Shown here in pieces: positions 2,629 through 13,841 of a stretch of 41,452 nt of DNA. The stretch's first letter is position 1; each line of letters opens with the position of its first letter. A program made the position numbers and the translations under genes. Source of the DNA: a virus; the IMG/VR virus record IMGVR_UViG_3300020192_000025, positions 1 through 41,452 of that record; one strand, written 5' to 3'. The notes beneath the pieces were generated by a model that was not told the DNA's origin, made no database searches, and saw nothing but the letters and a program-made list of their open reading frames with translations.

Positions 2629-3900
2629 ATGAACAACAACGACGCTACCTACGACATCCCGAAAGCCAATCTTCCTGCCCTTCGTGAGCAGTTCGAGAAG
2701 ATGGTCCGCAAAGCGAACCGTCTCGGCGCGGAAGTGCCGACGTTGAACATCCATGAGGAGTTCCAACAGGAGCGCGTTTCGCCGTCCGGCGTCAAGTACA
2801 TGGCGACGTTCTGCAAGGTCTCGATCGTGGGAGAGGCTCCCAAGCTCGCCGGCTGGAGTCTGGTGGCTGTGATCGAACCGTTGGGCGACGAAGTGATCGT
2901 CCGCACTGTCCCGAATGAAGTCTGCCCGGAAGCGTACCGCAAGACGACCTTCCACTGCGATCACTGCTCCACGCAGCGTCGTCGCAAGGAAGTCTTCGTC
3001 CTCCGGCACGACGAAGGTACTCACAAGCAGGTGGGGCGTCAATGCCTTTCCAACTTTCTCGGCGGCCTGTCGCCGGAGCGTCTGCTGTCCTGGTATTCGT
3101 TCTTCTCATCGGCGGAAACGCTGCTCGGCGAAGCCGGCAACGAGGATTGGGGCAGCGCCGGCGAGAAGACTTTCAACCTGGAACTGCTGTTGAAGACGAC
3201 GGCGATCGTCATCCGCAAGCTCGGTTGGCTGAGCGCCACGAAGGCGCGTGAGATCGCGGAGTCCGGCCGGCCGCAGATGAGCACTCGCGACATCGTCGTG
3301 ATGGTGTTGAACCCGCGGAGCCGTCACGATCACGAGTTCATCAAGGAAAACGCTCTCGTTCCTGAAGAACGGGACGCGGCCGACACCGCGGCGGCCATCG
3401 AATGGGCCGCTAAGCTCGAAGGCGGCACGGATTACGAACACAATCTCGGTGCGATCGCTCGTACCGGGTTCGCCGAATGGAACCAACTCGGGATCGCGGT
3501 AAGTTTGCTCCCGAGCTACCTCCGTCACGTCGAGCGACAGGCCGAGTTCGAGCGTGAACGGGCCAACAAGGTCCGCGGATACGTCGGAACCGTAGGCGAA
3601 CGCCGCGGATTCGAGAAGCTCACCGTGCTCGGCACCCACAACTTCGATAGCGACTTCGGAGTTCGCACTCTTGTCCGCTTCGAGGACGAAGTGGGCAACA
3701 TTCTGACCTGGTGGACCGGTGAGGTCGGTGAATGGCTCGACAAAGGCAACGTCGTGGACGTTACCGGCACCGTCAAGAAGCATGACGACTACAAGGGCAC
3801 CAAGCAGACCGTGCTCACTCGTGTAGCTAAAGGTCTGCCCAAACCCAAAGGAAAGAAGAAATGTGCCAACAAGGATGCCCAAAAGGACATCGCGGCGTAA
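2629..3900 (+). CDS. Zinc-binding protein with probable C-terminal OB-like domain (423 aa)
   Basis: Starts MNNNDATYDIPKANL. Around residues 110-145 there is a CDHC pair followed by basic RRRKEVFVLRHDEG and a later Cys (GRQCLSNFLGG), which looks like a zinc-binding module. The C-terminal 90 residues (WLDKGNVVDVTGTVKKHDDY, then GTKQTVLTRV) resemble an OB-fold beta barrel of nucleic-acid-binding proteins. I infer DNA or RNA binding, perhaps in replication; I have no firm family name. No ribosome site precedes the ATG because the promoter -10 ends six bases upstream. First gene of an early operon. Confidence 0.85.
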   Translation: MNNNDATYDIPKANLPALREQFEKMVRKANRLGAEVPTLNIHEEFQQERVSPSGVKYMATFCKVSIVGEAPKLAGWSLVAVIEPLGDEVIVRTVPNEVCPEAYRKTTFHCDHCSTQRRRKEVFVLRHDEGTHKQVGRQCLSNFLGGLSPERLLSWYSFFSSAETLLGEAGNEDWGSAGEKTFNLELLLKTTAIVIRKLGWLSATKAREIAESGRPQMSTRDIVVMVLNPRSRHDHEFIKENALVPEERDAADTAAAIEWAAKLEGGTDYEHNLGAIARTGFAEWNQLGIAVSLLPSYLRHVERQAEFERERANKVRGYVGTVGERRGFEKLTVLGTHNFDSDFGVRTLVRFEDEVGNILTWWTGEVGEWLDKGNVVDVTGTVKKHDDYKGTKQTVLTRVAKGLPKPKGKKKCANKDAQKDIAA

Positions 3901-9797: not shown

Positions 9798-9916
9798 CCG
9801 TCCCATTGAGTCCTGAGTATCAAATCCCGGGATCACGAGCGTTGAACTGCCGCCACCTTTACTACCGACTCACCGGGGCCGGTAAGACCACTCTGAAGTA
9901 CCAAGGAATCCGATGA
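9710..9916 (+). CDS. Small protein with GGPWDGK motif (68 aa)
   Basis: The segment EAEYIGGPWDGKRE followed later by RHLYYRLTGAGKTTLKYQG matches a pattern I associate with short phage and actinobacterial proteins of unknown role (GGP-DGK and a terminal Y-L...Y-G). Start uncertain: ATG 9710 chosen, GTG 9701 also possible. It overlaps the previous gene by about 88 bases in another frame, which is unusual here. Confidence 0.6.
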   Translation: MLSETLEAEYIGGPWDGKRETISHGTLEVAVPLSPEYQIPGSRALNCRHLYYRLTGAGKTTLKYQGIR

Positions 9917-10806
9917 GCAGCGTTGTTGCAAAACTAACCCGCATGAACCTGTTGAAGCCACCAGGCTTCTTAGAGCACAACGTCCACTACGAGACGATCA
10001 CCGGATCACAATCGTATGGCGTGTCGGACGAGAACTCCGACATGGACGTGATCGGCTTCTGCATCCCGCCCAAAGACATGATTTTCCCACACCTCCGCGG
10101 CGAAATCCCTGGCTTCGGGACGCAGGTTCAGCGGTTCGAGCAGTTCATCGGCAATGCCACCGAGGTGGACCGCAAGTACGACGTGACGATCTACTCGATC
10201 GTGAAGTTCTTCCAACTTTGCATGGAGAACAACCCGAACATGATCGACTCGCTCTTCACCGCTCAAGACTGCGTCGTGCATTGCACGAAGGTCGGCAACA
10301 TGGTGCGTGAGAAGCGCCGCATGTTCCTCCACAAGGGCGCGTGGCACAAGTTCAAGGGCTACGCCTACTCGCAGTTGCACAAAATGGACGGCAAGGGAGT
10401 CCAAACAGGCTCCAAGCGGTCTGAATTGCGAGAGAAGTTCGGCTACGACGTGAAGTTCGCCTACCACGTGGTGCGTTTGCTCGATGAGATCGAGCAGATT
10501 CTCACCGAGGGCGACATCGACCTGCGGCGCAACCGCGAGCAGATGAAAGCCATCCGCCGCGGCGATGTACCCAAGGAAGACATCGTCAACTTCTTCAACG
10601 AGAAGGAGAAGGCGTTGGAAAGCCTCTACGACAAATGCACGCTGCCGTGGGGACCGCCGGTGGACCAAATCAGGCAACTCCTCCTGAACTGCTTGGAAGA
10701 GCACTACGGGAACCTGGCGGACGCCGTTGTGGAGCCGGAAGCGGCCCTCAAAGCACTCCGCGAGGTCAGCGAAACACTCGAAAGGCACAGGTTACTGCTC
10801 GTATGA
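9913..10806 (+). CDS. Predicted nucleotidyltransferase (297 aa)
   Basis: ATG overlaps the preceding TGA. Residues 31-46 carry GSQSYGVSDENSDMDV, the GS...DxD signature of DNA polymerase beta-type nucleotidyltransferases, with D43 and D45 as likely metal ligands. The remainder is helical (a typical substrate domain), including KFGYDVKFAYHVVRLLDEIE. It resembles the phage and bacterial family of COG3541-type predicted nucleotidyltransferases. Substrate unknown: it might modify tRNA, protein or small molecules. Adjacent to the tmRNA-like RNA, so an RNA-end role is conceivable but unproved. Confidence 0.85.
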   Translation: MSSVVAKLTRMNLLKPPGFLEHNVHYETITGSQSYGVSDENSDMDVIGFCIPPKDMIFPHLRGEIPGFGTQVQRFEQFIGNATEVDRKYDVTIYSIVKFFQLCMENNPNMIDSLFTAQDCVVHCTKVGNMVREKRRMFLHKGAWHKFKGYAYSQLHKMDGKGVQTGSKRSELREKFGYDVKFAYHVVRLLDEIEQILTEGDIDLRRNREQMKAIRRGDVPKEDIVNFFNEKEKALESLYDKCTLPWGPPVDQIRQLLLNCLEEHYGNLADAVVEPEAALKALREVSETLERHRLLLV

Positions 10807-11054
10807 ACCGATTTGACGCCGCCGTCGAACCACCGAAGACGCAGCAGAAGACCCTGATGCTTCTCGTCGAAGTCAACGTGCCTGGGGAGGGCTGGACGCC
10901 GTTCGCCTTACGCAACGGCACCTTGGACGCCGCCATGACGGACGTGAAGTCCGTGAGCAGTAAGCGAGAGCTTCGCGACACGCGCATCCGCCGGCTTTAC
11001 ACGCAAGCGGAAGTGGTCGAGGCGAACGAACAGATGGAGAGCTTCTGGGCGTGA
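10803..11054 (+). CDS. Unknown small protein (83 aa)
   Basis: ATG overlaps the preceding TGA. Begins MNRFDAAVEPPKTQQKTLML and has a helical basic centre (KRELRDTRIRRLYTQAEVVE). The stop codon lies inside the 5' acceptor strand of the tmRNA-like RNA at 11047. Function unknown. Confidence 0.7.
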   Translation: MNRFDAAVEPPKTQQKTLMLLVEVNVPGEGWTPFALRNGTLDAAMTDVKSVSSKRELRDTRIRRLYTQAEVVEANEQMESFWA

Positions 11055-11183
11055 TGGGTTTCGACGACATAGCCAAGTGATCTCGCTCGCCGTGGTAGGC
11101 AAGCAGGGAAACATGCGTTTATCACAAGTCCCTGTGTGAATCAGCAACTTGCTCGGACGCCGGTTCGACTCCGGCCACGTCCA
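11047..11183 (+). ncRNA. Short tmRNA-like RNA (tRNA-like domain of ssrA type)
   Basis: The 5' GGGCGTG (11047-11053) pairs along all seven bases with CACGTCC (11176-11182), with one G-U. It is followed by GGGTTTCGACGAC, matching the conserved tmRNA 5' TTCGAC element. The 3' side has TCGGACGC and a perfect T-arm (GCCGG, loop TTCGACT, CCGGC at 11159-11175), close to the 3' end of bacterial tmRNA. A P2-like helix joins 11071-11078 with 11147-11153, and hairpins lie at 11085-11104 and 11105-11133. It sits in the only 148-bp coding gap of this operon. Odd points: about 137 nt, no clear tag frame, CTA instead of CCA after the discriminator. Could be a minimal, decayed or regulatory tmRNA. Confidence 0.55.
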
Positions 11184-11202
11184 CTAACACGAAAGGTACC
11201 GA

Positions 11203-13541: not shown

Positions 13542-13769
13542 TCAAACATGTGACCAGAAAGGGTCAGTAGTGCCGAAGGCTTCGATCCCCTTCAGCATGT
13601 TCTCGAAGGCTTCTTCGAGCGTTGCGCCGCCACGAGTGATTACCTTACGGTAGACCATCATGCGGCGTTCGTCGCGGTACGGCTTGCAGCCGACCCAAGC
13701 CGTGGCTTCGATCCCACACTCGTGGAGACCGAGCGTCCATCGCCACGGCTTAGGCACGCGATCGAGCAT
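13542..13769 (-). CDS. Unknown protein starting at the tRNA 3' end (75 aa)
   Basis: The first in-frame ATG outside the tRNA body uses the tRNA's last bases (13769-13767). Product MLDRVPKPWRWTLGLHECGI..., then WVGCKPYRDERRMMVYRKV and GATLEEAFENMLKGIEAFG. No ribosome site is evident, so initiation may start later at the paired Met residues. A longer frame through the tRNA gene is rejected. Function unknown. Confidence 0.55.
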   Translation of the reverse strand: MLDRVPKPWRWTLGLHECGIEATAWVGCKPYRDERRMMVYRKVITRGGATLEEAFENMLKGIEAFGTTDPFWSHV

Positions 13770-13841
13770 GGGTGACAGGACTTGAACCTGCAACGACTGG
13801 TTTTGGAGACCATCGCTCTTGTCCAGTTGAGCTACACCCAT
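13767..13841 (-). tRNA. tRNA-Trp (anticodon CCA)
   Basis: Minus strand. Acceptor ATGGGTG pairs with CACCCAT over seven bases; the D arm is GCTC...GAGC; the anticodon loop CTCCAAA gives anticodon CCA; the T-arm GCAGG-TTCAAGT-CCTGT is intact. The discriminator is G, as in bacterial tRNA-Trp, and no CCA is encoded. The outermost anticodon-stem pair (A-G) is mismatched. It lies immediately downstream of the tatA-like gene in the leftward operon. Confidence 0.9.

Follow-up and report, generated by a model that had tools for sequence, protein, structure and literature searches.

A short tmRNA-like RNA in a phage genome, its relatives in other phages and their putative action against host trans-translation

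Normal tmRNA carries a tag frame and four pseudoknots. The locus described here raises the question of what a phage RNA is, and what it may do in the infected cell, when it has the ends of a tmRNA and an interior of 89 nt, as compared to about 300 nt in normal tmRNA. This RNA (hereafter the window RNA) lies on the + strand at positions 11047-11183 of a 41,452-base virus record with terminase and P22-type coat genes, which was analysed over its whole length (the window). A first-pass annotation had described it as a tmRNA-like RNA of about 137 nt and had listed a reduced tmRNA, a decoy, a trans-translation inhibitor and a decayed phage ssrA as possible identities. The window also contains a serine recombinase gene (PF00239, 1843-2580) and a tRNA-Trp gene (13766-13841, - strand), which suggest that the phage may be temperate.

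The window RNA has the layout GGGCGTG-ATGGGTTTCGAC-[89 nt]-GGAC-GCCGG-TTCGACT-CCGGC-CACGTCC-A, and its initially proposed extent proved exact, with 137 nt and the discriminator base as the last position. The acceptor stem is formed by GGGCGTG (11047-11053) and CACGTCC (11176-11182), which pair at all seven positions and have G-U as the third pair (G3-U70), the alanine identity element; discriminator A73 follows at 11183, and since the genome continues with CTA rather than CCA, CCA must be added. Sequence and Rfam alignment both identify a D-loop-like segment, ATGGGTTTCGAC, at 11054-11065, with the TTCGAC element at 11060-11065, as well as the GGACG element of tmRNA at 11155-11159, and the T-arm, GCCGG-TTCGACT-CCGGC, occupies 11159-11175 with a stem paired at five of five positions. 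Judged from its sequence, the window RNA retains intact every element that marks tmRNA as an alanine-accepting RNA.

A search with the Rfam tmRNA family RF00023, one of the checks proposed at the outset, aligned positions 11047-11186 to model positions 1-374 with 52.7 bits, above the cut-off of 47; bit scores are the safer measure here since RF00023 gives overly favourable E-values to tRNA-like sequence, tRNAs in other records reaching 20-37 bits with this model. ARAGORN, proposed for the same purpose, called no tmRNA in the window. A purpose-written motif detector produced a single match in the whole window, namely the RNA at 11047-11183. We consider it very probable that the window RNA is a genuine tmRNA-derived RNA gene. 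That it arose by chance, or that it was copied from a host tmRNA gene as an attachment site, seems extremely improbable; while tmRNA look-alikes can arise inside coding sequence, as in the portal genes described below, and tmRNA genes do serve as integration sites for phages (PMC11915505), the detector gave no match when run on Markov shuffles of the window totalling 1.66 Mb, and an attachment-site copy would hold the 3′ end only, whereas the window RNA has both ends, paired with each other.

The 89-nt interior (11066-11154), where the mRNA-like domain and pseudoknots would sit, shows no structure above chance. The fold energy of the whole window RNA is the same as that of shuffled sequences (z = -0.60), an outcome that the first-pass annotation had named beforehand as speaking against the RNA, and the interior alone gives a z of about 0 against shuffles. 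A candidate P2, consisting of a bulged 7-bp helix between AGCCAAGT (11071-11078) and ACTTGCT (11147-11153), with one bulge, has p = 0.29. Since neither this helix nor the fold exceeds chance, it is on its tRNA-like ends that the class membership of the window RNA depends, and arguments from structure rest on the class as a whole; the window RNA stands despite the null fold result because the covariance-model match and the homologues outweigh it.

The interior likewise bore out the initial impression that a tag frame and pseudoknots are not evident. After the 5′ part, only one frame runs into a stop codon before the RNA ends, at a late position, and the candidate tags from this frame end in ...SQVPV, unlike known tags; the four tmRNA pseudoknots were not found in the 89 nt. 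The best reading is that the window RNA represents a phage tmRNA cut down to its tRNA-like domain (TLD), with a putatively non-coding interior. We regard as very unlikely the alternative that the window RNA is a complete tmRNA in miniature, whose short tag has gone unrecognised and which folds a single small pseudoknot. While this alternative could draw on the one frame with an internal stop codon, on the two-residue tags of some bacteria (PMC11915505), on the room offered by the eight longer members of the class described below (114-143 nt), and on one relative (L007) in which a very short frame may follow an A-rich stretch, the best H-type pseudoknot in the window RNA is not better than in shuffles (p = 0.10), the candidate tag has the unfamiliar SQVPV ending, no Ala-Ala-stop occurs within the window RNA, and the majority of class members (73-85 nt) are too small for a tag.

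This class emerged from scans of IMG/VR with patterns that combined the two conserved tmRNA ends at short spacing; a fully paired acceptor was required, and coding look-alikes were taken out. At least 60 distinct short tmRNA-like sequences, including the window RNA, were found, and at least 71 viral contigs besides the window carry such RNAs; when class records were re-searched with RF00023, 39 of 46 were above the cut-off. Among the matches listed, 45 of the 56 non-redundant members are 73-85 nt long and 8 of 56, including the window RNA, 114-143 nt, and the interiors of the relatives mostly measure 15-45 nt, as compared to 89 nt in the window RNA. G+C content around class members ranges from about 25% to 70%, indicating that many unrelated phages are involved.

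Two features are invariant among the matches listed: all 56 non-redundant members have G-U as their 3:70 pair and A at base 73 (56/56 for each), neither of which had served as a filter in class selection. In addition, 217 of 235 P2 pairs form in the 47 short-interior members (below about 95 nt), with all six pair types represented, as compared to 101 ± 8 pairs and a maximum of 129 in 5000 shuffles of the partners, a control that ignores the relatedness of members, near-duplicates having been removed. For this count, the bases that follow TCGAC were matched with those that precede GGACG over the first five pairs; it was made by script, since MAFFT puts the 5′ strand in the wrong place when it aligns the short class. 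Below about 95 nt, compensatory changes of the kind that had initially been suggested as a check have preserved the closing helix P2, which in many members encloses an A-rich, asymmetric internal loop and a small hairpin. For the window RNA itself, a search of phage records gave no direct DNA relatives, and no direct orthologue was found.

The class also bears on whether the window RNA is what remains of a complete phage tmRNA in decay, an identity that the first-pass annotation had considered and that we now regard as quite unlikely. The lack of conserved structure in the window RNA interior would fit with decay, as would a Streptomyces phage copy (Alone3, see below) that has lost TTCGAC and falls below the Rfam cut-off; however, all motifs are intact in the window RNA, widely differing phages retain G3-U70, A73 and the closing P2 helix, with compensatory changes in the class, and random decay would not give a size peak at 73-85 nt. 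The other identities proposed initially, i.e., a reduced tmRNA, a decoy or a trans-translation inhibitor, find support in the conserved class as well as in the precedent of mycobacteriophage DS6A, discussed below.

Several further observations were made during these scans. Two of the longer short tmRNAs, found on different contigs (L216, 10684-10809, and L213, 9520-9646), have a common interior layout, GNGAGTA ... GACNTGGAAA, which may be an ordered RNA motif. L100, L158, L168, and L172 contain more short tmRNA-like RNAs, which have one additional T-stem base and were missed by the acceptor filter. Pattern matches in portal genes (L105, L106, L107, L111, L129, L139, L140, L161, L164, L167, and L177) were dropped from the counts; their coding location was checked in L106 and L111, and the others were judged by sequence similarity. 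In L106, the tmRNA-like sequence (3341-3435, 54 bits) lies inside the 3′ end of the portal protein gene, and it also occurs in L105, L111, L139, L167, and others; it could be either a coincidence or a real overlapping element. Also set aside was a first BLAST match to Pseudomonas phages, which proved to come from permuted tmRNAs of Samunavirus phages and from an ordinary, complete tmRNA in OQ658364. The circularly permuted tmRNAs of the Pseudomonas phage Samunavirus SM1 (L094, 2973-3272) and of PA_L9 (L095) are unannotated in their records and match RF04321 with 119 and 116 bits, respectively, with the ARAGORN tag ANDTSFDVRLAA.

Among cultured phages, BLAST homologues were found in the Streptomyces phages LuckySocke, GiJojo, Alone3, pSt2308, and BRock. 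The short tmRNA is located directly after tRNA-Val(tac) in a tRNA array and is unannotated in LuckySocke, Alone3, pSt2308, and BRock; it occupies the same place in the array of GiJojo, where a hypothetical protein is called over it. This call (hypothetical protein 44; L224, 3994-4236) probably is a spurious gene call. P2 varies among these homologues by pair-preserving changes, and the inner GAAAGCCGCAYGCGGA is invariant. LuckySocke, GiJojo, pSt2308, and BRock score above the RF00023 cut-off, and the short tmRNA of Alone3, which scores below it, may be decaying. With regard to cellular genomes, a narrow pattern applied to 84,980 bacterial and archaeal genomes, which rare cases could escape, gave 14 matches and no short tmRNA; these 14 were ordinary tmRNAs, with the pattern inside the mRNA-like domain, or chance matches, and were without a paired short acceptor. 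When checked, the pattern used for this genome collection recovered ten viral contigs, all of them with short tmRNAs.

The window RNA is part of a + strand operon, in which it lies 3′ of an RlaP-type nucleotidyltransferase gene (9913-10806, + strand; PF10127, E = 1.3e-17; phrog_388) and an 83-aa ORF (10803-11054, + strand) that overlaps the end of the RlaP gene (ATGA) and has its stop codon within the RNA acceptor stem. Processing of the RNA 5′ end would remove this stop codon and leave a non-stop mRNA. Comparable ORF/RNA overlaps are found in the relatives L007, L059, L040, L113, and L065, and an arrangement of this kind has been described for smpB of Carsonella (PMC4131195). While the adjoining nucleotidyltransferase gene reported initially is confirmed, RlaP is a neighbour only and probably not a functional partner of the window RNA; none of 66 phage loci with RlaP relatives had a tmRNA-like RNA within about 5 kb, as assessed with a detector that recalls 52 of 61 known cases, and no partner gene common to short tmRNAs was found among 150 flanking ORFs. 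As no SmpB-type family was found among the top-listed families of flanking genes, use of the host SmpB is presumed.

With regard to function, we propose that the window RNA would be a tRNA-like decoy, chargeable with alanine, and that it and host tmRNA would compete for SmpB, EF-Tu, and stalled ribosomes. As it apparently has no resume codon, the window RNA would in this way suppress the tagging of peptides, along with normal trans-translation, in the infected cell. On balance, it appears somewhat more likely than not that the window RNA is an antagonist of host trans-translation, and short phage tmRNAs in general probably jam or hijack host rescue of stalled ribosomes. The invariance of G3-U70 makes it probable that the window RNA would act in its charged form, at the level of EF-Tu and the ribosome, instead of passively soaking up SmpB; this invariance also leaves room for template-free alanine transfer. 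Some phages profit from host trans-translation, and inhibition thus need not help every phage. The precedent is a near-TLD-only tmRNA of mycobacteriophage DS6A (Mao et al. 2009, as summarized in PMC4131195 and PMC11915505); according to these summaries, a tmRNA of this type strongly inhibits E. coli tmRNA, and does so with or without the ability to be charged, suggesting that charging may not be needed.

Alternatively, the window RNA could be a working tagless rescue RNA, which would be charged with alanine, take over the nascent chain of stalled ribosomes with SmpB and free ribosomes for the phage, perhaps through repeated alanine transfer (alanine tailing), and leave proteins not marked for degradation; we consider this unlikely. 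The invariant G3-U70 and A73 of the class are consistent with tagless rescue, but it would involve release without a stop codon, for which we know of no step. TLD-only tmRNA together with SmpB was shown in vitro to enter the ribosome and to take part in peptidyl transfer, and also to make polyalanine, with the chain moving from TLD to TLD (PMC2481249), and mitochondrial tmRNAs without a tag frame have been retained along with SmpB (PMC11915505); by contrast, the sole cellular test of a phage TLD-only form, as summarized in PMC4131195 and PMC11915505, showed tmRNA inhibition. That short tmRNAs are in wide use among phages to handle stalled ribosomes without a template, actively drawing on the SmpB and alanine of the host and doing more than block its trans-translation, likewise seems rather doubtful.

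If the window RNA and its relatives do function as decoys, phages would repeatedly have turned an RNA that serves quality control against the host, as an RNA inhibitor of its ribosome rescue, and the cultured Streptomyces phages make this putative function directly testable. Standard tools such as ARAGORN overlook the short tmRNA class, and the Streptomyces phage copies lack an RNA annotation. What is new here is how broad the class is, together with the longer variant represented by the window RNA; the kind has one published precedent, DS6A.

Like the DS6A TLD-only tmRNA, the window RNA is phage-encoded and has a tmRNA tRNA-like domain without an evident tag; whereas the DS6A RNA, compared by description only, is little more than a TLD, the window RNA has an 89-nt interior. 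The window RNA shares the acceptor with G3-U70, A73, TTCGAC, GGACG, and the T-arm with standard one-piece tmRNA (ssrA, RF00023), including that of phage Bxz1, but is without a demonstrable tag, pseudoknots, and mRNA-like domain and measures 137 nt as compared to about 350. The tmRNAs without a tag frame that occur in mitochondria and plastids (RF02544; about 65 bp in Mallomonadaceae plastids) resemble it in having a tRNA-like part and no evident tag; these are organellar, however, with mitochondrial genes usually permuted, whereas the window RNA is phage-borne. Finally, the permuted two-piece tmRNA (RF04321), which is also present in phages Samunavirus SM1 and PA_L9, has the tmRNA tRNA-like domain in common with the window RNA but encodes a tag and has a permuted gene order; in the window RNA, the tmRNA tRNA-like domain within a phage genome is collinear.
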